From: Numidum massiliense
Lineage (GTDB): Bacteria; Bacillota; Bacilli; Thermoactinomycetales; Novibacillaceae
Length of the DNA: 64,000 nucleotides
Reading direction: 5' to 3'
Assembly: GCF_001375555.1 (NCBI RefSeq)
Contig: NZ_CTDZ01000009.1
Location: 2,535,758 to 2,599,757, forward strand
Shown: positions 3,938 through 50,808 of the stretch, piece by piece
Layout: every line of letters starts with the position of its first letter
Numbering within the stretch: the first letter of the stretch is position 1
Position numbers and translations under genes: made by a program
Notes under the pieces: model-generated
The model's input: the letters and a program-made list of their open reading frames with translations, nothing else
The model's database searches: none
What the model was told of the DNA's origin: nothing

Positions 3938-4864
3938 CTATTTCCCCAGAAAACTTTTCTCAAAGAAGTCTAACTGAAACTCCAACGTCAAAGGATCATT
4001 TAAAAAAAACTCCTTAAAATCGACTTCAAAGACCCGCTTGTTTTTTACAGCCGGAATATTTTTATATGTATCGGTTTGCTGAAATGAATTGTCGGCATCG
4101 CTATTTTTGCTCAGGATGAGGTAATCCCCAGCAAACTGCGAAAGCACCTCTTCCGATACCGCATAATAGCCAGTCTTAAGAGCTTTTTCTTCAACTTTCT
4201 TCGGCATTTTTAATCCCATTTCCTGAAATAAAATTTCCGTCCCGCGCCCCCAATTATTGCCGAATACATAAATCTGTTTGTCGTATTTCTCAATGACGGA
4301 CACTGTTGTGTTTTCTCCTATTTTTTTCTTAATATCTTTTCCGGCCTTTTGCGCTTTTTTCTTGAATTGATCAACCCACTCCCGCGCTTCCTTCTCCTTG
4401 TTCAGCAGCTTCCCGATCTCAATATGTTGCGTTAAGTAATCGACTTTACCGTAAGTGTAAGTGACAGTTGGCGCGATCTGCTTTAACTTCTCAACATTTT
4501 TGACAGTAGATAACCCGATGATAAGATCAGGGTTTAATTCTATTATTTTCTCCAAATTTTCATCAGATACCTCCGTGACATCTTTTAATTTTTCACTGAA
4601 GCGCGGGTTCATCTTCGCCCACGAATCGACTCCTACGAGATTGACGTCTAAAGCCATGACATTGCCAGCGAAGCTTGCCAAGACGACGACGCGCTGCGGA
4701 TCGGCCGGAACTTCGACAGGACCGTTTTCCGATTGGTAGGTTACCGTGTCAGTTTTGGATGCCTTCGAGTCGTGGGAATCAGTGTTCACGCCGGTTTCCG
4801 TACTACTGCAACCACTTAACACGAGAATGCAAAATAGGATCAAAAGAGCAGGGATTTTTTTCAT
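3938..4864 (-). CDS. Ferric siderophore-binding lipoprotein
   Basis: A 308-residue substrate-binding protein of the iron ABC transporter, anchored outside the membrane. The N-terminus is a lipoprotein signal (hydrophobic LLILFCILVLSGC, lipobox LSGC, modified Cys at residue 19). The mature part has the class III (TroA-like, Peripla_BP_2) pattern: PADPQRVVVLASFAGNVMAL, then IIELNPDLIIGLS, a Lys-rich backbone helix around residue 160, and ALKTGYYAVSEEVLSQFAGDY. It is the first gene of the operon, expressed from a promoter with an overlapping Fur box. It captures a ferric siderophore and hands it to the two permeases. The ligand is not known. Confidence 0.92.
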   Translation of the reverse strand: MKKIPALLILFCILVLSGCSSTETGVNTDSHDSKASKTDTVTYQSENGPVEVPADPQRVVVLASFAGNVMALDVNLVGVDSWAKMNPRFSEKLKDVTEVSDENLEKIIELNPDLIIGLSTVKNVEKLKQIAPTVTYTYGKVDYLTQHIEIGKLLNKEKEAREWVDQFKKKAQKAGKDIKKKIGENTTVSVIEKYDKQIYVFGNNWGRGTEILFQEMGLKMPKKVEEKALKTGYYAVSEEVLSQFAGDYLILSKNSDADNSFQQTDTYKNIPAVKNKRVFEVDFKEFFLNDPLTLEFQLDFFEKSFLGK

Positions 4865-5063: not shown

Positions 5064-5112
5064 TTGATCTATAAACGGAAACAGTGTATATTCTTATTGA
5101 TAATGATAATCA
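5064..5112 (+). promoter_or_regulatory. Promoter and Fur box of the reductase gene
   Basis: TTGATC (5064-5069), a 17-base spacer and TATATT (5087-5092) form a plausible plus-strand promoter. The 7-1-7 Fur box TGATAATGATAATCA at 5098-5112 sits on the expected start site. The promoter faces away from that of the siderophore operon, so one intergenic region of 278 bases serves both under the same iron control. Confidence 0.8.
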
Positions 5113-5142
5113 ATATTATATGAACCTAAGGTGGGGACGAAA

Positions 5143-6192
5143 ATGGATACAGATCAATTATTCGACGTAACAATCGTCGGCGGAGGACCAGCCGGCCTTT
5201 ACTCCGCTTTCTATAGTGGGCTGCGGGAAATGAAAACAAAGATTATCGAATATCAATCATTTTTAGGCGGAAAGGTACACGTCTATCCGCAAAAAATGAT
5301 TTGGGATGTTGGTGGGCTTACGCCCATTCTAGGAACCAAGTTAATCGAACAGCTCGTAAAGCAAGGATTGACGTTTCACCCAGAGGTCGTATTAAATGAA
5401 AAAGTACAAGCGATCGCCCGTAACGAAGAAGGTATCTTTGTGCTACGAACTTCCTCGGGGCAACAACACTATTCAAAAACAGTCATTATCGCTGTCGGAG
5501 GCGGCATACTGAAGCCAAAAAAACTCGCGCTGGAAGGTGCGGAGAGATTCGAGGGTTCAAATTTACATTACACTGTGAAATCTATAGGTCATTTTCGAGA
5601 TAAAACGGTGCTTCTTTCGGGAGGCGGAAACTCGGCGATCGACTGGGCCAATGAATTAGAACCTGTCGCTAAACAGGTTTATTTGGTCTACCGTAAGGAT
5701 TCTTTGACCGGTCACGAAGCACAAGTTAAACAGTTGCTTGACAGTTCAGCCGTTTGCTTCTTTCACACCTCTATCACAAAACTGATTGCCTCCAAAGGTT
5801 CTAAAAGGTTCGAATGTGTCGAGCTGACTAACCACGAAACGGGAAAAGTTTCATATTTAACGGTGGACGAAGCGGTGATTAATCACGGATATGAACGGGA
5901 TACCTCGCTATTAGAAAATAGCAGTTTGGATATTGAAAAGATAGACGATTACTTCATTGCAGGTACCGCCCACGGTGAATCTTCGGTCCCTGGGCTGTAT
6001 GCCGCCGGAGATATATTGACATACGACGGGAAATTGCATTTAATTGCCGGTGCTTTTCAAGATGCTGCTAACGCCGTCAACAAAGCCAAACAATATACCC
6101 AACCTAATGCCGATCAACGTGCAATGGTGTCTTCCCACAACGAAATATTTAAGCAACGCAATCGAGAGCTGGTCAAACAAATGCTACAATAA
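5143..6192 (+). CDS. Ferredoxin/flavodoxin-NADP reductase, type 2 (iron-regulated)
   Basis: A 349-residue thioredoxin-reductase-like flavoprotein of the type 2 ferredoxin-NADP reductase family (Bacillus YumC/YcgT). FAD binding is at DVTIVGGGPAGLYSAF (residues 7-22), NADPH binding at VLLSGGGNSAIDWANEL near 155, and GLYAAGDI near 280. The Cys pair of true thioredoxin reductases is missing, which separates the two families. The ATG at 5143 follows AAGGTGGGG; an in-frame GTG at 5131 lies inside that site and is rejected. It has its own Fur box and diverges from the siderophore operon. The B. subtilis homologue YcgT is also Fur-controlled, so a role in reducing imported ferric siderophore or feeding ferredoxin during iron limitation is likely but inferred. 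Confidence 0.85.
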   Translation: MDTDQLFDVTIVGGGPAGLYSAFYSGLREMKTKIIEYQSFLGGKVHVYPQKMIWDVGGLTPILGTKLIEQLVKQGLTFHPEVVLNEKVQAIARNEEGIFVLRTSSGQQHYSKTVIIAVGGGILKPKKLALEGAERFEGSNLHYTVKSIGHFRDKTVLLSGGGNSAIDWANELEPVAKQVYLVYRKDSLTGHEAQVKQLLDSSAVCFFHTSITKLIASKGSKRFECVELTNHETGKVSYLTVDEAVINHGYERDTSLLENSSLDIEKIDDYFIAGTAHGESSVPGLYAAGDILTYDGKLHLIAGAFQDAANAVNKAKQYTQPNADQRAMVSSHNEIFKQRNRELVKQMLQ

Positions 6193-40778: not shown

Positions 40779-41051
40779 ATGATCCGTTCGCACTTGCTCG
40801 TTCACGGACACGTCCAAGGTGTCGGCTTCCGTTACTTCACGTTGCAACAAGCCCAGTCCCTGGAGATTACCGGTTGGGTTAAAAACAATGTCGACGGCAC
40901 GGTTGAAATCGAAGCGCAAGGAGAGTCAGAACAGTTAAAGCGCTTTATTGAGCGTGTGAAAAAAGGCAGCCCTTTTTCCAAAGTGCAGCACGTCCAAGTC
41001 CGTACGACAGATCAGCTCAAAAACTACCGGTCCTTTCGCCTCAAATATTGA
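40779..41051 (+). CDS. Acylphosphatase
   Basis: A 90-residue acylphosphatase that hydrolyses acyl phosphates such as acetyl phosphate in the cytoplasm. The family signature is HGHVQGVGFRYFTLQQA (catalytic Arg) and GWVKNNVDGTVEIEAQG (catalytic Asn). The ferredoxin-like fold is complete. A -10 like TATAAT lies upstream and the ribosome site is GGGGG. It follows the pfl locus divergently; a link to acetyl phosphate from PFL fermentation is possible but speculative. Confidence 0.94.
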   Translation: MIRSHLLVHGHVQGVGFRYFTLQQAQSLEITGWVKNNVDGTVEIEAQGESEQLKRFIERVKKGSPFSKVQHVQVRTTDQLKNYRSFRLKY

Positions 41052-41065
41052 CGGTTCCCTCCATT

Positions 41066-41150
41066 GCCACTAAAAACGTTTTGGCTTTCGTACGGGGCTA
41101 GCGTGCAGCGGATGACGTCGCCTTCGTGAGATTCACCTTAGGGTGTTCCA
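41066..41150 (-). pseudogene. Remnant of the 3' end of a GH38 alpha-mannosidase gene
   Basis: The minus-strand frame reads ESHEGDVIRCTLAPYESQNVF. The intact GH38 gene at 44451 ends with ERHEGDVIHCTLTPYEIKTF, so this is a diverged second copy of that gene's last 30 codons. DNA identity is obvious over about 80 bases. It suggests a duplicated or moved mannosidase gene of which only the tail is left. Confidence 0.75.
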
Positions 41151-41628
41151 TGGCACATTTATCACGATTGATCTGCGATTTGCTCATCATCTCTACATTA
41201 CTTTGCCGTAGCCCCGAGCAATTGTGCACGCAGTCCTTTCGTGGAAATCCGAGCACATTAAGCCACTTCTTGTTTTTTCAAAATTTGTATCACTAACTTT
41301 TTGCGAAGACGAATTTCTTCTTAATCTCCCCCAATTACCCTCATTTAAAAACCTAGAATCGTCCACTAATAATTGATTTCTATAACTATTCTAGTGTGTT
41401 CCCACATTCAAAGTCAATGACAACTGAAACACTGATGTAGTTCCATAACCCCTTGTTTCTGATTTTACCACCCACCACAATAAGCGGCGACAGCGGTCTA
41501 ATATCGTCACCATTTTGTAAAATCTTAAACCTACCCGGTAACCACAATTGCTGCTACACTAATCTTGTTAGTATGTAACAAATTAAATCATATTGTATCA
41601 AAACCTATCAGAGAGGAAGGGAGAGCTG
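41151..41628. other. Non-coding region with a possible decayed gene
   Basis: No supported gene. A broken minus-strand frame around 41240-41310 (RLRKKLVIQILKKQEVA, then stops) looks like a decayed helix-turn-helix protein but cannot be assigned. TTGTTA-N5-TAACAA at 41565-41581 is an inverted repeat near the expected promoter of the cytochrome genes. Confidence 0.4.
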
Positions 41629-41712
41629 ATGAGAGCTTTTATTACCATGCCATCGAGCATCCCAATTACTGGAACACAAGGAGGAAACGACCATGAACTT
41701 TCCAGTCGTTGA
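41629..41712 (+). CDS. Possible 27-residue upstream peptide
   Basis: ATG at 41629 with a strong ribosome site (GGAAGGGAG); the frame MRAFITMPSSIPITGTQ continues and stops at 41712, overlapping the first 20 bases of the cytochrome gene. It contains the ribosome site of that gene, so it may couple or tune its translation. Confidence 0.3.
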   Translation: MRAFITMPSSIPITGTQGGNDHELSSR

Positions 41713-43060
41713 ATTTCCATGGCTTGGAAATGGTACCGTTATTGCAATCGTTGCCATCATCCATGTCATCATTAGTCACGGCGTGGCCATCGGCGCGACG
41801 ACGCTGATGGTGTCGCTGGAGTATGTAGGAATAAAGAAAAATAACGACGGCCTCTTAGCAGTTGCACGAAAGTTTAGTAAGTGGATACTCATTTTGACGA
41901 CAACAGTAGGAGCGGTGACGGGGGTGGGGATTTGGTTTACCACGACCGTCATTCAGCCCGACTCCATAGGGTCGTTACTACGTATTTTCTTTTGGGCTTG
42001 GTTTGTAGAATGGATTGTCTTCGTCACAGAAGTCGTCCTACTTATCATCTATTATTACACATGGGATAAGTGGCAAGGGGCGAAGCGGGTCATTCATAAC
42101 CGCATCGGAATCGCACTGGCCATTTTCTCTTGGATTACAGCAGCAATTATTACGGGAATTTTATCGGCAAAATTAACTCCGGGGAAATGGACCGATACCC
42201 TTTCGTTCTGGAACGCTTTCTTTAACCCTACATACCTTCCTTCGTTAGCGTTTCGCACGTTTATCGCCATCGTCTTGGCAACGGCGCTCATTGGCTTGCC
42301 GCTTAAATTGTTTATGAAAAATAAACCGCTACAAAAAGACATCTTTAAAGTGTTTGGGCTTTGGAATGCAATCGCTTTACCGGGTATTTTACTTACTGGG
42401 GTGTGGTATTTGTCCCGCATTCCAAAAGAAGCGTACGATTTGATCGTCTGGTCGACCGGAATGAGCAAAAGTATGTTTAGTTGGGTCAATTTGCTCGGAT
42501 TGGCGACATTCATCGTGTTTACTGTTTGGATGGCACGAAGGCCAAAGAAGGTTCCGCTTATTTTATCACTTGCCGTTTTCGGAGCTTCGATCGGTTTTAT
42601 TGCCGAATTTGAGGCGGTACGCGAATCCGTGCGCAAGCCATTTATCATTTATGACTACATGTATGCCAACGGCGTGCTTGCGAAAGATGTCGAACGTTAT
42701 CAAAAAGAAGGATATCTAGCGAATTCTACGTTTGCACCAGTCAAGGAAGTGACCGCAGATAACAGGTACGAAGCCGGTGAAGCGCTGTATGTAGGCCAAT
42801 GTATCGCCTGTCATACGGTGGACGGCTGGCGGGAAAGAAGAGCCTTTTCCAACCGACTCGCGGGCTGGTCTGAAGAAGTAATCGACAACTATATTGGTTC
42901 ACTTCATGAAGCTAGACCGTTCATGCCGCCGTTCGCCGGAACGGAAGAGGAGCGCGCCGCTTTGGCTCACTTTTTGCAAACGGTCTCTAATGGCGACCAA
43001 CAGAAAAAAGACAAATCAACTGATGCTAACAAATCAACTGAAGCTAAAGGGGGCGAATGA
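41693..43060 (+). CDS. Cytochrome bd-superfamily membrane subunit fused to cytochrome c
   Basis: A 455-residue membrane protein. Residues 10-320 form about eight to nine helices resembling CydA: the first helix has IIHVIISHGVAIG (His24, His29 as haem-ligand candidates) and the loop EAVRESVRKPFIIYDYMYANGV precedes the tail. The C-terminal domain (355-430) is a class I cytochrome c with CIACH (Cys370, Cys373, His374) and the likely Met ligand in RPFMPPF (Met411). It ends in a Lys/Ser/Thr tail. This resembles members of the bd superfamily that carry a c-haem domain (the OR-C group, as I recall) rather than ordinary CydA. It overlaps the next gene by four bases. Role: membrane electron transfer, possibly O2 reduction; partner and acceptor unknown. 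Confidence 0.72.
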   Translation: MNFPVVEFPWLGNGTVIAIVAIIHVIISHGVAIGATTLMVSLEYVGIKKNNDGLLAVARKFSKWILILTTTVGAVTGVGIWFTTTVIQPDSIGSLLRIFFWAWFVEWIVFVTEVVLLIIYYYTWDKWQGAKRVIHNRIGIALAIFSWITAAIITGILSAKLTPGKWTDTLSFWNAFFNPTYLPSLAFRTFIAIVLATALIGLPLKLFMKNKPLQKDIFKVFGLWNAIALPGILLTGVWYLSRIPKEAYDLIVWSTGMSKSMFSWVNLLGLATFIVFTVWMARRPKKVPLILSLAVFGASIGFIAEFEAVRESVRKPFIIYDYMYANGVLAKDVERYQKEGYLANSTFAPVKEVTADNRYEAGEALYVGQCIACHTVDGWRERRAFSNRLAGWSEEVIDNYIGSLHEARPFMPPFAGTEEERAALAHFLQTVSNGDQQKKDKSTDANKSTEAKGGE

Positions 43061-44133
43061 CGATGTTTCTGGAAAGTTCCCTCATCCCTAACGATATTGA
43101 ATTAGCCATCCCCGGAAATGTCGGTTTTTTTGAAGTGCTTATTGTGGTCAGTTTTTTACTGCATATTTTGTTTGTCAATATTACGATCGGTTCGTCAGCT
43201 ATGGCCGTGTTTCAAGAAATCAAGGGGATGATTACGAAAAAGCAAGAACACGATGCACTCGCCGCCCAATTGGCCCATCACACCTCTGTGTTAAAAAGTA
43301 TTGCTGTCGTGCTCGGTGTGGCGCCATTACTTCTGATCAGTGTCATATACACCCAGTTTTTCTACCCTTCAACTATTTTAGTTGGTAAGGCGTGGTTATC
43401 TCTCATTATTTTGTTAATCTCCGCCTTTCTCATCTTGTATGCCTATAAATTTTCGTGGCGAAAAATGCAGGCGGGCGGGAAAAAAATGGCTCACGTATTG
43501 ATTGGTGGAGTTGGCAGTTTACTCCTCTTGTTCGTCCCGCTCATTTTTATTGTCAATGTCGTGTCTATGCTCTATCCAGACATGTGGGAAGGCTCCAAAG
43601 GATTTTTCCACGGGCTGGTGTATTATCCGCAAATATGGCAACGCTATGTTCACTTTATTTTAGCCAGTTTTGCCGTCGCTGGAATCTATCTGTATTTTTG
43701 GAATAACCGCTCGCAAAAAAAAGCTGATGCAACGAATGGCGACGATATAGTGAAGGCCTTGGTCCACCGTCAAGGAAAAAAACTCGGCTTGCAAGTAATG
43801 ATCTGGACGACCGCCATGCAACTCGTCGCAGGGACGTGGCTCTTCATGAGCTTTGACCGCGAGATTCGGCTCCTGTATATGGGAGACGATCCTCTGCTTA
43901 CCGGTTTGTTCATAGGTTCGATCTTAGTGACACTGTTACTCATCTTTTTCTTAGCATTACTGATGAAGAATGATAAGAAGCCATATTTGGCCTTGTCACT
44001 CGCCGCGTTTATTTTAGTACTCGGCCTGATGGGTTGGATGCGACATGAATTGCGTGAAGCTTATTTAGACCCATATCAGAAAGAGACACCCCGCACCACC
44101 TCAGTGGTAACGAGCGAATCTTTACTTAACTAA
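43057..44133 (+). CDS. Partner membrane subunit of the bd-like cytochrome
   Basis: A 358-residue protein with about eight to nine membrane helices and no c-haem motif. Its first helix reads FEVLIVVSFLLHILFVNITIGSSAMAVF, matching the first helix of CydA-like proteins with a haem-ligand-type His36. So both genes seem to derive from the CydA fold rather than one being CydB. Overlap with the upstream gene implies a stable complex. No cydB or cydCD lies in the window. The ATG at 43057 or the second ATG at 43063 may be used. Confidence 0.65.
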   Translation: MTMFLESSLIPNDIELAIPGNVGFFEVLIVVSFLLHILFVNITIGSSAMAVFQEIKGMITKKQEHDALAAQLAHHTSVLKSIAVVLGVAPLLLISVIYTQFFYPSTILVGKAWLSLIILLISAFLILYAYKFSWRKMQAGGKKMAHVLIGGVGSLLLLFVPLIFIVNVVSMLYPDMWEGSKGFFHGLVYYPQIWQRYVHFILASFAVAGIYLYFWNNRSQKKADATNGDDIVKALVHRQGKKLGLQVMIWTTAMQLVAGTWLFMSFDREIRLLYMGDDPLLTGLFIGSILVTLLLIFFLALLMKNDKKPYLALSLAAFILVLGLMGWMRHELREAYLDPYQKETPRTTSVVTSESLLN

Positions 44134-44156: not shown

Positions 44157-44274
44157 GGCTTGACATAGAGCTTCTACGGGCATGATTTCTAGCGCTTGCG
44201 CTGGGGCGATGCACCACATGTCGCCCCAGCCGATCGCGCCCCAGCCGATCATGCCCGCCCCTCCATGTCAAGCC
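44157..44274. repeat. 118-bp nested palindrome
   Basis: Three nested exact arms: GGCTTGACAT (44157-44166) with ATGTCAAGCC (44265-44274), GGGCATGAT (44178-44186) with ATCATGCCC (44248-44256), and GCTGGGGCGA (44200-44209) with TCGCCCCAGC (44221-44230). An extra copy CGCCCCAGC follows at 44237-44245. It has no T run, so it is not a plain terminator. It may be a palindromic interspersed element or the end of a lost mobile element. Confidence 0.8.
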
Positions 44275-44450: not shown

Positions 44451-47400
44451 CTACTGCCGCCGGACGTCCACTAAAAATGTTTTGATTTCGTACGGAGTTA
44501 ACGTGCAGTGAATGACGTCGCCTTCGTGCCGTTCGCCTTGCGGCTGTTCCATTAAATCGCACGCCTGCCACGAGCGAATACGTAAGTCACTCGTTATCTC
44601 CACTTTACCGCGGCTCCCGGAAAAATCGTGCACGCGCAACACAATTTGTTCGCGATCCTCTGCTTTTTTTACTGCGTCGACCATGACGTACGGCGAAGAT
44701 ACGCGGAACAAAGACAGCTCAGGCGCAGTCGAATGTCCAGTCACAACCGTTAAAGGGTTATTTAAGCACCACGCTTCGTACACCGTGTTTCCTTCCAGCC
44801 AATCGCCTTTGTGCGGCAGTAGCGCATACGTGAATACGTGTTCTCCTTGATCCGCCTCTGTATCCGGATGAATCGCCGACTTCAACAGCGAGAGGCGCAA
44901 CACGTTGTCTTTAATGTCATACCCGTACTTACAGTCGTTGAGCAAGCTGACACCGTATCCGCGTTCGGACAAATCCGCCCACTGGTGCCCTACCGACTCA
45001 AAGCGGGCGTAATCCCAGCTCGTATTCCAGTGAGTCGGACGTTTCACGTTGCCGAATTGAATGTCGTACGTCGCCTCCGTCGCGCGGATGTCGACGGGAA
45101 AAGCGACTTTGAGTAAACGTTGCCGCTCCTGCCAATCAATGTTGGTGGCAAAGTCGATGCGGCGGCTGTCAGCGTACAATATCATGTCCTGCGCGATGGA
45201 GGAGTCGCCATACACCCACTCGAAGCGAACGACCGCCCGCAATTGGCCGTTTTCCACGACGCGGCGCGCACGGAGGTCGACGACTTCGTTCATTTTTTGC
45301 TGATAAAAAATATCGATATCCCACGCGTCGAAGGCGAGCGGTTTGTCTTCAAACACTTGCAACACGTTACCGCGCGCTCCCACAGGCAAGACGTCTCGCG
45401 CACTCTCGCGGTCATAAAGTTTCACGAGTTGCCCCTGATCGTTCCACTCGATGGCATAGTACGGCGTATCGATCCCGTTCTCCCAGACAACGAACGGCGT
45501 CGTTGTCCCTTCTACCGCTCGCTTACCGCCGACTTCCTCTGCACACTTGCCGTCAGCTTCTGCTACTCGCTTGCCATCGGCTTCTGCTTCCCCGCGGCCA
45601 CCAGCTTCTATCGCTACTACTGGTTTGCCTCTGCCAGCGGCGCTCGACTCGCTATCCCGTCGCGCGATTGACTCGCCCGACGTGCTATCAGCTACCGCGA
45701 CACTTACAGCCGATTTAAACGTCAGCGTCGAATACCCCATCGGCGGCAATTCACCCGTGCGCACGAGCCAGTAGTCGTCACAGTAGTCGGCTACAAGCGG
45801 TTTGCCGGCGGCGTCAAACCAGCTGCCGGCGCGATCCATCTCCGCGGAAGCCGGAATTTTTACAATATGTTGTCGCGGCCACGGCGCGGAGTTAAATACC
45901 GTTACTCGAGAAGTTTCCGGTTCAGTCTCCCCTTCGGCCATCAGTAACTGTGCCGCTTCTTGCCACGCGGTGCGGCCGAGGCGTTCTGCTTCCGCATACT
46001 CCACAACACTGTCTTCGTACACTTCGCGAATCGACGAGCCGGGGATAATGTCGTGAAACTGGTTGCGGAGAATGATTTTCCAGCCGTCGTTCAGCTCGCC
46101 TTGCCGGTACGATGTCCAGTCCGAACGGAGCACGCTCGCTAGTACGCCCAGCCATTCGCTCTCGCGGTAAAGCAGTTCTAGCTTCCGGTTCATCCGCTTG
46201 TTGTACGCTTGGCTCGTATACGTACCGCGGTGGTATTCCAGGTAAAGCTCACCGTCCCACGTATGGACATAGCTCGACGTGTTCGCCACCCGCTCGTGCA
46301 AACGAGCGAAAAATTCCCCCGCCGTCCCGGTCTTCGTGTGCGGTAAGCCCGGCAACTCGTCCATGCGCCGCCGCATTTCCAACATGTCGCGGTTGACGCC
46401 CCCGCCGCCGTCACCGTAACCGTAGGAAAGTAAAAGCTCTTGGTTCACTTCTTTGTCGCGATACGCCTCCCAAATGCCTTGCACCGTTTTCGGCGTCACT
46501 TTTCCGTTGTAAGTATAAAACCACGATCCTGGCTCTGACCACGGTTCAGGCGTCGTAATGAAGTGAGTGAGTACTTCAGACCCGTCAATGCCGCGCCACT
46601 TAAACGTGTCGTGTGGCATGCGGTTGTATTGGTTCCAACTAATTTTCGTCGTCATGAATGTGTCGATACCCGATTTACGCAAAATTTGCGGTAGCGCCCA
46701 GCTGTAGCCGAACACGTCGGGCAGCCATAAATAGCGGCACTCCGAACCAAACTCTTCGCGGAAAAAACGCGTGCCAAACAGCAATTGCCGGACGAGTGAT
46801 TCGCCGGACGGCAAGTTGCAGTCCGCTTCCACCCACATACCACCTGCCGCTTCCCAGCGCCCTTCCCGCACCCGCTCTTTAATTTCCGCGTACAGTTCCG
46901 GGTAATCTGTTTTTAAGTAGTCGTACAACTGTGGTTGCGTTTGTAAAAAGACGTACTCGGGATAGCGTTCCATCAACCGCATGACCGTCGAAAACGACCG
47001 CGCCGACTTTTCCCGCGTATGCTTGAGTCGCCACAGCCAAGCGACATCGATGTGCGTATGGCCGATGCAGTGCACCGTAACCGGATGATGTTTTTCGATT
47101 TTCCTTAATTCGCTCCTAAGCACATGCCGTGCCTCTTGGACACTCTCATAAAATGTTTCTGAGCCCGGCCGCGACCAGTCGAGGCAATGGAACGCCTTGT
47201 TTAATGCACTGAGCATCAAGGCGCGCTCGGCCATTTGCTCCGGCAACTCTTTTACCGCTTCAGAGACGGCGCGCGCCGTGTAAAATAAATCATCGGCGAC
47301 CGGATCTAACCACGCGAGCGCAGCGCGTTTAATTTCGTGGGTTTGTTCTTTCCGTTCACCACCGCCTTCGAGCCCCGACCACAAGCGGAAGGCGAGTGCG

Positions 47401-47792
47401 ACCGATTCGCCAGTTGCGCTTGTAGGAAAAAACACTTCTTGGTGGTTCGAGTCGACCCCTTGATACGGTTTACCGTTCAAAAACAGCAGCGATTCAAACC
47501 CTGAATTATTGCCCGCACCCGTTAACCCAAAATCGAACAACCCGACGACCTGTTTCCCCGACCAAGCAGCGGGAAGATGGACGTCAGCAGTCAACCAAAC
47601 GTATTTGTCGCGTCCTTTCCACTGCTCGCCGACAGCCATTGTCCCCCACTCCGCTGTTTGGGGCGGGTAACTGTCAATCGCCTGTGTCCCGTCTTCCGTA
47701 CAGCGAAACGCCGGGATCTCGATCATTTCTCGGTAACGGTACGGTGACAACTCGTTAATGCGCGCCGCCAGTTTATTTTCCGTTAAAAACAT
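44451..47792 (-). CDS. Alpha-mannosidase (GH38)
   Basis: A 1113-residue cytoplasmic glycoside hydrolase family 38 enzyme; no signal peptide. The catalytic barrel begins with HCIGHTHIDVAWLWRLKHTRE (zinc His and Asp, near residue 245), and the nucleophile Asp is in LWLPDVFGYSWALPQIL. The middle three-helix bundle and C-terminal beta domains are present. A 60-residue Glu/Ala/Gly-rich stretch near 735-795, built from 24-base repeats, interrupts the beta part. The N-terminal 250 residues form the long Golgi/lysosomal-like entry domain seen in bacterial GH38 of the ManA/SpGH38 kind. The ATG follows AGGAGG. It is the last gene of the mannoside operon; a tail fragment of a second copy lies at 41066-41150. 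Confidence 0.92.
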   Translation of the reverse strand: MFLTENKLAARINELSPYRYREMIEIPAFRCTEDGTQAIDSYPPQTAEWGTMAVGEQWKGRDKYVWLTADVHLPAAWSGKQVVGLFDFGLTGAGNNSGFESLLFLNGKPYQGVDSNHQEVFFPTSATGESVALAFRLWSGLEGGGERKEQTHEIKRAALAWLDPVADDLFYTARAVSEAVKELPEQMAERALMLSALNKAFHCLDWSRPGSETFYESVQEARHVLRSELRKIEKHHPVTVHCIGHTHIDVAWLWRLKHTREKSARSFSTVMRLMERYPEYVFLQTQPQLYDYLKTDYPELYAEIKERVREGRWEAAGGMWVEADCNLPSGESLVRQLLFGTRFFREEFGSECRYLWLPDVFGYSWALPQILRKSGIDTFMTTKISWNQYNRMPHDTFKWRGIDGSEVLTHFITTPEPWSEPGSWFYTYNGKVTPKTVQGIWEAYRDKEVNQELLLSYGYGDGGGGVNRDMLEMRRRMDELPGLPHTKTGTAGEFFARLHERVANTSSYVHTWDGELYLEYHRGTYTSQAYNKRMNRKLELLYRESEWLGVLASVLRSDWTSYRQGELNDGWKIILRNQFHDIIPGSSIREVYEDSVVEYAEAERLGRTAWQEAAQLLMAEGETEPETSRVTVFNSAPWPRQHIVKIPASAEMDRAGSWFDAAGKPLVADYCDDYWLVRTGELPPMGYSTLTFKSAVSVAVADSTSGESIARRDSESSAAGRGKPVVAIEAGGRGEAEADGKRVAEADGKCAEEVGGKRAVEGTTTPFVVWENGIDTPYYAIEWNDQGQLVKLYDRESARDVLPVGARGNVLQVFEDKPLAFDAWDIDIFYQQKMNEVVDLRARRVVENGQLRAVVRFEWVYGDSSIAQDMILYADSRRIDFATNIDWQERQRLLKVAFPVDIRATEATYDIQFGNVKRPTHWNTSWDYARFESVGHQWADLSERGYGVSLLNDCKYGYDIKDNVLRLSLLKSAIHPDTEADQGEHVFTYALLPHKGDWLEGNTVYEAWCLNNPLTVVTGHSTAPELSLFRVSSPYVMVDAVKKAEDREQIVLRVHDFSGSRGKVEITSDLRIRSWQACDLMEQPQGERHEGDVIHCTLTPYEIKTFLVDVRRQ
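45517..45612. repeat. 24-bp in-frame tandem repeat (4 units)
   Basis: Four imperfect 24-base units code for (E/A)-x-(A/V)-(D/G)-GK repeats such as EADGKRVAEADGKCAE inside the first GH38 enzyme. Frame is kept. Confidence 0.8.
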
Positions 47793-47913
47793 GTTCGCCC
47801 TCCTAACGAATATATGCGCTCCTCGTCACTATGACTTCTCCCAAGTGGATCTCAATCGACAACCCGTCATTCTTTCTGTGTCTCTCTCGTTTACGAGTAC
47901 CTTGTCAACTTTA

Positions 47914-50808
47914 TCAGCCCCGCCGACTCACACTTAATGTCACAATTTCATGGCCACCCACAACCGTCCGTACCGTGTGTTCCGCTTGTTCTGCGTGTTC
48001 CGCCAAGGAGAGCTCTTCCAGCCGCTGTTCGAGAATGTTACTTTTGTACCACTTATGCACGGCAAACGGCACGCAGACGTCGAGCTGCTGCTTTGCCTGT
48101 CCCATGTTAAACCAGCGCAAAATGACGTCCCCCGTCTCTTCCGCCACTTTTAGAGTCGAGTGGGCTACTGTCGTCACCCCTTCGTTAGTCGTATCCCCTT
48201 CGTTAATCGTATCCGCTTCGTTAGTCGTCACTCCTCCGCTCGCACCGTCCCACGCCACAAACGCGTGAACGGATGGCAACGAGCCGCCCTGTAATTTGAG
48301 CTGCTCACTGCTCCACGGTATCTGGAATTGGTAGGCGTCCACATACGCGCCAGAAGTTAGCCCGTCACCTTGGTGGGGGATCATTTGCACTTCCACCGTA
48401 TGTTCACCTAAGCATTGCGCCTCTGGCGTCGGGAATACGCCCCAGTCGCCCATCTCTCCGACACTGCGCAGTAGCGTTACCGCTATCGTGTTTCGCCCAT
48501 CGCGCAATATTTCATATTCATTCAAGCCTTTATTCGCAATTGTTAAGCCGGCTGCTCCGTCATTGATACTGACGAATGCTTGCTGGTGCTGGCAGTTGCT
48601 CGGGTTTTTCCATCCTGGCGCCGGCGTGTTGTCACGGCGTGCCACTTCGAAAATCGAATCAGCCTCGTGTTGGTCCGCCACTAAATCGGTCGGGAAAAGC
48701 ATGCGCAGGCGATGGTCTTTCGCCTTGTTGTCAAAAGAAGCCTGCACGGTGACACCGCGCCCGCTTTTCTCCAAACTGACGCGTGTAACTATCGTTAGCG
48801 GCACCGTCTCCTCGGCTCGCTGTGCTTTCCGCTCAGTAAACCAGACGTATGCTTCTTGCTCCCGCCGCAACTCCTCATTAGCACTCACCGGAATGTCTAG
48901 CTGATGGCGGATTTCCACTGTGGCGCGGTATGGCTTGTCTTCGACGACGCATATGTCCGCTGGCAGGCCTTTCGTCGTTAGCGCTACGTCGCCGTCTGGC
49001 TGTTTAAACATATACTCGTTGCCGATGTCGCCAACATCTTCGTACACACACAAGTCGCGAAATGTATGACCACCCGCTTTTTCCGTCACCGCAAGCGAGC
49101 CATCTGCGGCAATGTCGACGCGTACGTACGCATTTTCCAGCCTGCGCTCATTCTTGAGTAGCGTTTGTGCTTGTGCCGCGGTGAGTTCGTCTTCCTGCTG
49201 CTGTAACACAACCGTCGCTGCCCCGTTCACGACTGCCGAATCCGTGTCGCTCGTAGACTTCCGTCCTCGTACCCACGTGTACACAGCATAGCCGAATGCC
49301 GGGATCTCTGTCGCACCGAAAGTGAGTCGGACGCGGCGCGCCATGTACGGCTGGCGAAACTTGTCGTCCGGTAAATCGTAACCGAACTGCACGCCTAAAT
49401 CGTCGACAGTGCACGCGACAGTACGCCCTTGCACATCGATCAGCTGCCACTCCGCTAAACTGAGCGCTTGCAGCCGCCGCTGCATCTCATCCGTGGCATA
49501 TCCTTCGCTAAAGTAAATGCGCTTCACGTCGAGTTGCACTGTCACCGTCCCGCTCTTTTGCCACGCACTCGTATTGAACACGGCGAATGGTAAGACGTCT
49601 TCGCCCCTCGTAGCGAAGCTACGCGTGTCGATCTTGCCGCCGATCTTTCGCAAACTGTCGGCAACGATCGCTTCGCCGACGTGCCTACTTTTATCGAAAC
49701 GCGTCACCATTTCCCGGTGCACTTCGTCGACGCTACAGCCACAAATACTGTCGTGCGGATGATTTTGCATGAGCGTCTTCCACGCATACGCGAATAAGTG
49801 GTGCGGATACGTTTCCCCGGTAACGTAAGCGCACGCGGCGAGCGGTTCCGCCACTTTTTCTAAGAGCGTCTGTCCGCGTTGGTTCAGCTGTTTCAAATAA
49901 ATGCGCGACGATGCCGTGTTCACTAACGTCGACCAGCCGTCTGTGCGCTGGCTCCGCAATTCTCCTTGGACGACCTTTAAATCTTGCGGCAGCTCTCGCT
50001 TCACTTCCCGGACGTAGTCGGCGAAATTGGAGTGGATAAAAGTGACGTCTGGGGCGACCTTTTGCGCCACGCGGATCGCCGTCGACAAATCCGTCTGCAC
50101 CGGTTGATGGTCACAGCCGTTCATAAATAACAGCTGGTTCGTCGCCGCATACTTGCGTGCGTCAGCTAATTTTTGCGTCCAAAAAGCGTGCGCCTCCTCC
50201 TCGTCAACCGGTACTTCGTTGCCGTTAGAATACCAGTTGGCAAACAAAATTCCTAACACCGACGAGCCATCCGGCGACTGCCACACCATCTCGGAAAAAG
50301 GTGACTCGTAACTGTCGCTGTCAGTGACAGTGTTGTTAAAGCCAGTCGGCTTCACCCCGCGACCAAAGACGGCAGTGTCGATACCAGCCTGCTGTAGCAG
50401 TTGCGCTGCCTGTCCCATGTTCCCGAACGAATCGGGAAAGTAACCGAGTTTAGAAATAGCGCCGTACGACTTCGCGTCGCGGTGCCCGTAGAGCAAGTTG
50501 CGTACGTTCGCCTCACTACTCGTGAGAAACTCGTCTTGCAACACGTACCACGGCCCGATATGAATCCTGCCCGCGCGGATGAACGCAGCGAGTGTTTCTC
50601 GCATTTCTGGACGAACTTGTAAGTAGTCTTCCAACATAATCGTCTGGCCGTCGAGGTGAAAGCTCCTATATTCCGGATCTGCCGCGAGTGTCTCTAGTAA
50701 ACGATCCATGAGTGCCACGAGGCGTACGTGATGTTTTTCATACGGCAAATACCACTCGCGATCCCAATGCGTGTGTGAAATAATGTGTGCAATCGTCTGT
50801 TGTGACAT
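47914..50808 (-). CDS. Alpha-mannosidase/mannosylglycerate hydrolase-like (GH38)
   Basis: A 964-residue GH38 enzyme of the shorter MngB type: the catalytic barrel starts at once with HIISHTHWDREWYLPYEKHH (residues 8-27), and LGYFPDSFGNMGQAAQLLQQ holds the nucleophile Asp. A second conserved site is AWKTLMQNHPHDSICGCSVDEVHREM. It would release mannose (or 6-phosphomannose) from alpha-mannosides or 2-O-mannosylglycerate in the cytoplasm. An in-frame repeat of 18 bases adds TTNEADTINEGDTTNEGV near residue 865. It lies upstream of the larger GH38 gene, same strand, 121 bases apart. Confidence 0.92.
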   Translation of the reverse strand: MSQQTIAHIISHTHWDREWYLPYEKHHVRLVALMDRLLETLAADPEYRSFHLDGQTIMLEDYLQVRPEMRETLAAFIRAGRIHIGPWYVLQDEFLTSSEANVRNLLYGHRDAKSYGAISKLGYFPDSFGNMGQAAQLLQQAGIDTAVFGRGVKPTGFNNTVTDSDSYESPFSEMVWQSPDGSSVLGILFANWYSNGNEVPVDEEEAHAFWTQKLADARKYAATNQLLFMNGCDHQPVQTDLSTAIRVAQKVAPDVTFIHSNFADYVREVKRELPQDLKVVQGELRSQRTDGWSTLVNTASSRIYLKQLNQRGQTLLEKVAEPLAACAYVTGETYPHHLFAYAWKTLMQNHPHDSICGCSVDEVHREMVTRFDKSRHVGEAIVADSLRKIGGKIDTRSFATRGEDVLPFAVFNTSAWQKSGTVTVQLDVKRIYFSEGYATDEMQRRLQALSLAEWQLIDVQGRTVACTVDDLGVQFGYDLPDDKFRQPYMARRVRLTFGATEIPAFGYAVYTWVRGRKSTSDTDSAVVNGAATVVLQQQEDELTAAQAQTLLKNERRLENAYVRVDIAADGSLAVTEKAGGHTFRDLCVYEDVGDIGNEYMFKQPDGDVALTTKGLPADICVVEDKPYRATVEIRHQLDIPVSANEELRREQEAYVWFTERKAQRAEETVPLTIVTRVSLEKSGRGVTVQASFDNKAKDHRLRMLFPTDLVADQHEADSIFEVARRDNTPAPGWKNPSNCQHQQAFVSINDGAAGLTIANKGLNEYEILRDGRNTIAVTLLRSVGEMGDWGVFPTPEAQCLGEHTVEVQMIPHQGDGLTSGAYVDAYQFQIPWSSEQLKLQGGSLPSVHAFVAWDGASGGVTTNEADTINEGDTTNEGVTTVAHSTLKVAEETGDVILRWFNMGQAKQQLDVCVPFAVHKWYKSNILEQRLEELSLAEHAEQAEHTVRTVVGGHEIVTLSVSRRG
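48170..48241. repeat. 18-bp in-frame tandem repeat (4 units)
   Basis: Four units of an 18-base sequence (GTCGTATCCCCTTCGTTA and variants) code for Thr-Asn-Glu-Gly-Asp-Thr type repeats in the second GH38 enzyme, without shifting the frame. Confidence 0.85.

Follow-up and report, generated by a model that had tools for sequence, protein, structure and literature searches.

A pair of overlapping genes in a window of 64,000 nucleotides from Numidum massiliense probably encodes a two-subunit bd-type O2 reductase of the OR-C kind, which would oxidise cytochrome c and not quinol. One subunit (CydA-c) is fused to its own cytochrome c, and therefore its electrons probably come from cytochrome c and not from quinol; beyond that, we infer the haem occupancy, the donor, O2 as the acceptor and the energy coupling of the pair. 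Judged from its position in our own tree and from the attached haem c, the pair very likely belongs to OR-C, a family within the cytochrome bd superfamily (Murali, Gennis and Hemp 2021, cited through PMC13189123, PMC10839748 and PMC11707229) that is distinct from the quinol-oxidising qOR family (PMC13189123; PMC10839748). As far as the literature found shows, the OR-C family has been published without a biochemical study, and this part of the superfamily is known from sequence only. The name OR-C presumably refers to the haem c that the CydA subunit carries.

The first-pass annotation had placed both open reading frames at exactly the positions listed in Table 1. They make up a compact unit of two genes that share 4 nt (ATGA), and the start codon of CydA-c is preceded by a strong ribosome-binding site (AAGGAGGAAACGACC-ATG). 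The pair is flanked on one side by an acylphosphatase-like ORF and on the other side by two alpha-mannosidase-like genes in the opposite orientation. The latter are consecutive (44451-50808), and the first of them contains a low-complexity repeat insert, ADGKRVAEADGKCAEEVGGKRAVEG. The pseudogene debris and the palindrome that had been noticed at the borders of the pair are an alpha-mannosidase 3'-end remnant with an internal stop and a perfect 10-bp inverted repeat, respectively. The latter is possibly a terminator or a repeat; a terminator scan found no T-run terminator at this site, and in promoter and terminator scans the scores were not above chance. Within the window, the pair is adjoined by neither a cytochrome c gene nor an oxidase gene, which counts against the preferred reading, and the neighbours do not name the donor. 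In addition, no CydB gene adjoins the pair, as had been stated before, and the partner of CydA-c is a CydA homologue.

Table 1. Features of the gene pair and its surroundings. Positions refer to the window, and fractions to CydA-c sequences.
Feature	Position	Strand	Remarks
Acylphosphatase-like ORF	40779..41051		
Remnant of alpha-mannosidase 3' end	41067..41151	-	83% identity over 86 nt to 44467-44551; family D1
CydA-c, CydA-like subunit, cytochrome c fused at the C-terminus, 455 aa	41693..43060	+	AlphaFold pLDDT 86.6
His24, equivalent of CydA His19 (active-site haem ligand)	41762..41764	+	48/48
Glu106 and Glu113, equivalents of CydA Glu99/Glu107	42008..42031	+	profile alignment; 48/48 each
E307-R310-E311-R314-P316 motif; E311/R314/P316 = CydA Glu445/Arg448/Pro450	42611..42640	+	48/48
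Cytochrome c domain, about residues 360-430 (CIACH 370-374, axial Met411)	42770..42982	+	fold like cytochrome c6, VIA Z 8.3
CydA', second CydA-like subunit without cytochrome c domain, 358 aa	43057..44133	+	AlphaFold pLDDT 93.4
Palindrome 3' of the operon	44200..44230	.	10-bp arms, 100% complementary
Alpha-mannosidase-like gene, first	44451..47792	-	
Alpha-mannosidase-like gene, second	47914..50808	-	

The resemblance of both subunits to CydA is weak at the level of single sequences, and it is clear at the level of profiles and folds. With single sequences, only the N-terminal part of CydA-c resembled CydA (phmmer 3.7e-11, Geobacillus 5doq), and the match of the fast-evolving CydA' to Pfam CydA (0.0024) was below the cut-off; neither subunit is covered by an NCBIfam family, and for CydA' the PDB contains no protein related in sequence. 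Profile comparison to canonical CydA yielded 1.4e-18 for CydA-c and 1.3e-10 for CydA', and the profiles of the two subunits proved to be homologous to each other over their full length (7.8e-28), including the c domain, which is present in both subunits of most relatives. The AlphaFold models, which are single chains without haems, are of good quality (Table 1), and their best PDB matches were CydA chains for CydA-c (VIA Z 28.3, 309 residues, 3.0 A) as well as for CydA' (VIA Z 27.8, 311 residues, 3.5 A), and in Foldseek searches CydB chains ranked below CydA chains for both subunits. Thus, the pair represents a CydA plus CydA' arrangement without CydB.

The full cytochrome c domain that had been proposed for the first subunit is confirmed by two Pfam matches above the cut-off, Cytochrome_CBB3 (1.2e-7) and Cytochrom_C (3.4e-5), and the haem c ligands C370, C373, H374 and M411 were found in 48 of 48 relatives. 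The active-site set of CydA, consisting of His19, Glu99, Glu107 and Glu445, is likewise present and invariant in CydA-c (48 sequences). It should be noted that the pairing of Glu99 with Glu106 was taken from an HHalign profile comparison, and that the multiple alignment puts E. coli Glu99 one column off because the E. coli protein is one residue longer between the two glutamates. The residues associated with quinol oxidation present a different picture. The position of His186, a ligand of haem b558, is occupied by histidine in none of the 48 sequences, Met393 and the quinol-site residues Lys252/Glu257 are not conserved, and in the AlphaFold model a short link joins helices 211-242 and 259-282, where CydA has its Q-loop. 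Hence, none of the qOR features, namely the Q-loop with Lys252/Glu257, His186 together with Met393 in the CydA subunit, and a CydB partner, was found. Bacilli rely on menaquinol oxidases, and the identity of the fold and of the active-site residues with those of CydA would also be expected if the pair were a menaquinol oxidase similar to ordinary CydAB in which the cytochrome c formed a side branch; however, this is unlikely in view of the missing quinol-site and haem b558 residues and of the two canonical CydAB oxidases that the Numidum genome already encodes besides the pair.

The histidine that had been noticed at a similar position in the first helix of both subunits corresponds to His19 of CydA; it is H24 in CydA-c and H36 in CydA', and it is also invariant in the latter (41 of 41 sequences). 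In CydA', a second histidine (His199) occupies the His186 position in 40 of 41 sequences, and the Glu445 position is a histidine in 35 of 41 (His330 in Numidum). Glu107 has been lost in the 41 sequences, so that, with Glu445 mostly replaced by histidine, CydA' does not have the complete active-site set of CydA. Because histidines are conserved at haem-ligand positions, a haem-free, CydB-like role is not the obvious reading for CydA', and it may bind haem. It is conceivable, albeit somewhat doubtful, that b haems on His36, His199 and His330 bridge the way from the cytochrome c to the O2 site of CydA-c, so that the haem chain would be split over two CydA paralogues and the Bacillota form would be a stripped-down variant, reduced to one haem c. 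A second CXXCH domain was detected in 52 of 87 CydA' partners, with a few of those scored as lacking it being incomplete sequences, and it is absent from the Bacillota and alphaproteobacterial partners. Most Gram-negative CydA' partners carry a haem c, and it is unusual that the Numidum CydA' has none.

The conserved histidine at the His186 position of CydA' would make a b haem near the outer face possible, as might be expected of an electron-exit module, that is, a quinol:cytochrome c reductase or dehydrogenase that passes quinol electrons outward via haem c. Some bd-like proteins of Nitrospira have been proposed to act in complexes of this sort, or else in reverse electron flow (PMC6606698). 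Nevertheless, such a function is quite unlikely for the pair, because CydA-c has neither a recognisable quinol site (no Q-loop, no Lys252/Glu257) nor the haem b558 ligand, because the acids and the histidine of the O2 site are all invariant in CydA-c, and because quinone-reductase genes are not among the neighbours. Of the two functions offered by the first-pass annotation, an uncharacterised oxidase or a quinol dehydrogenase, the former would therefore be the best reading, and the latter is disfavoured.

When the species genomes of GTDB were scanned with an alignment of four sequences as query, 404 stretches encoding relatives were detected, and 80 loci were kept. These belong to Bacillota, Pseudomonadota, Bacteroidota, Planctomycetota, Acidobacteriota, Nitrospirota, Verrucomicrobiota, KSB1, Zixibacteria, a Methanoperedens bin and others. 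The earlier restriction to "this lineage" could thus not be upheld, and a pair specific to the Numidum lineage was rejected. Of the 88 loci in which the neighbouring gene could be read, 87 have the conserved gene pair; the exception is L096, in which no partner was found, and L081, which is cut by a contig end, lies outside the 88. In trees of the core helices, calculated with FastTree and a reduced IQ-TREE, CydA-c forms a monophyletic group and so does CydA' (100% bootstrap each); both lie outside the qOR clade (100%), and the OR-N-type proteins of Nitrospirota form a clade of their own (96% bootstrap). The proposed phylogenetic comparison therefore places CydA-c outside the quinol oxidases as well as OR-N. 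The deeper order among CydA-c, CydA' and OR-N differs between conflicting groupings (FastTree 0.06; bootstrap 66).

The sequences from Bacilli form a single clade (FastTree support 0.97). Among 42 genomes of the order, the gene is present only in that of Numidum itself, and in a sample of the phylum it was found in 6 of 398 genomes. The closest relatives are from Siminovitchia species (75-76%) and Pseudogracilibacillus (72-74%), which lie outside the genomes sampled from the order, and the GC3 of the pair is 0.50-0.52, about 0.1 below that of the neighbouring genes (0.61-0.64). The scarcity in the order, the proximity to Siminovitchia, the lower GC3 and the mannosidase remnant upstream favour acquisition within Bacilli, and the transfer that had been suspected from the borders of the pair is thus likely.

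Across the loci, the neighbouring genes are in keeping with a respiratory role. Up to 20 loci encode RegB/PrrB-like redox kinases or response regulators in the vicinity of the pair, although the underlying cluster also takes in some unrelated regulators, and on Agrobacterium and Methylosinus plasmids such genes are situated directly 3' of the pair. The combination of kinase and response regulator directly 3' of the pair was observed in Alphaproteobacteria, again also on plasmids (L054:3741-5653, L185:8757-10545, L186:9936-11832), and a NarL-type kinase and regulator follow the pair in L034 and L176. It is very unlikely that the pair uses cytochrome c to reduce a different small molecule such as NO or peroxide, or that it is an O2-scavenging detoxification enzyme without respiratory function: bd enzymes do metabolise NO and peroxide and redox-sensing kinases are among the neighbours, but the ligand set is the same as in O2-reducing CydA and no recurrent NO-linked genes were found in the neighbourhood.

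A TsdA/SoxA-like dihaem cytochrome is encoded directly 5' of the pair in six loci (L043, L052, L068, L081 and L088 at about 5100-6000, and L087 at 3988-4854) plus L174 (5661-6674), one of which has a Methanoperedens MAG label, and in three of them (L043, L068, L088) a SoxB-like gene is located downstream. This suggests that in this subgroup thiosulfate-derived electrons reach the pair via cytochrome c, and the cytochrome, the pair and the SoxB-like gene are possibly a thiosulfate-to-O2 unit. In a relative from Bacilli (L175:7047-10865), two candidate electron donors flank the pair: a divergent small cytochrome c lipoprotein and, downstream, a multi-CXXCH lipoprotein. Eight loci of Methylococcaceae (L044:8825-9115, L041, L042, L045, L048, L055, L059, L082) share a conserved ORF of about 96 aa after the pair, and in some of them sMMO-type genes lie farther downstream. 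The Numidum genome encodes two haem-copper oxidases, a bc-type cytochrome b, several c-type cytochromes and cytochrome c assembly genes; therefore, a c-type chain exists.

For the preferred reading as a cytochrome c-oxidising O2 reductase, the following mechanism can be envisaged. Electrons would enter at the haem c of CydA-c on the external side of the membrane and would pass to a two-haem active site in the four-helix CydA core (His24, Glu106, Glu113, Glu311, Arg314), where cytoplasmic protons would be used in the reduction of O2 to water. CydA' would replace CydB as the dimer partner and may hold at least one b haem (His36, His199, His330) that wires the complex. In Numidum, the electrons would be donated by the bc complex or by a small cytochrome c anchored in the membrane.

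If OR-C enzymes oxidise cytochrome c, the chemistry of the bd superfamily would be wider than quinol oxidation, and a copper-free cytochrome c oxidase would have been overlooked in many bacteria. Automatic annotation labels both genes "c-type cytochrome" or "hypothetical protein", and the enzyme is thus missed in respiratory inventories. The points of most worth are the haem-bearing potential of CydA' and the Gram-positive form with a single haem c, a small version of two chains that would be convenient to express and to solve.

Several known systems invite comparison. The NrfD-like subunits of Alternative complex III and polysulfide reductase have a related helical fold (Z 17-19), but they belong to different complexes and their scores are clearly below those of the CydA matches. 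Canonical CydAB oxidases of the qOR family (Geobacillus 5doq, E. coli 6rko/7ose) share the CydA fold (Z 27-28) and His19/Glu107/Glu445/Arg448 with the pair; however, the pair contains CydA' instead of CydB and a haem c domain, and it has no Q-loop and no His186/Met393, in agreement with the earlier view that it differs from ordinary Bacillus bd oxidases. In the OR-N CydAA' of Nitrospira and Nitrospinota, CydA paralogues are thought to pair and cytochrome c is the likely donor (PMC10839748, PMC12342949), and thus two CydA paralogues and a putative cytochrome c donor are common to both systems, whereas the OR-N proteins compared are without a fused haem c, retain His186 and group in the separate clade (96%) described above. 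Two loci of Nitrospirota (L170:1084-3675, L173:506-3001) contain adjacent CydA-like gene pairs without haem c, which in L170 are preceded by a cytochrome c gene. These may correspond to the OR-N5 pair that has been reported to follow alternative complex III. From other OR-C members the Bacillota form differs in that its CydA' is without haem c, which 52 of 87 partners elsewhere possess; nevertheless, with its CydA core, the lack of a quinol site, the attached haem c and a clade outside qOR and OR-N, the pair is most similar to OR-C.
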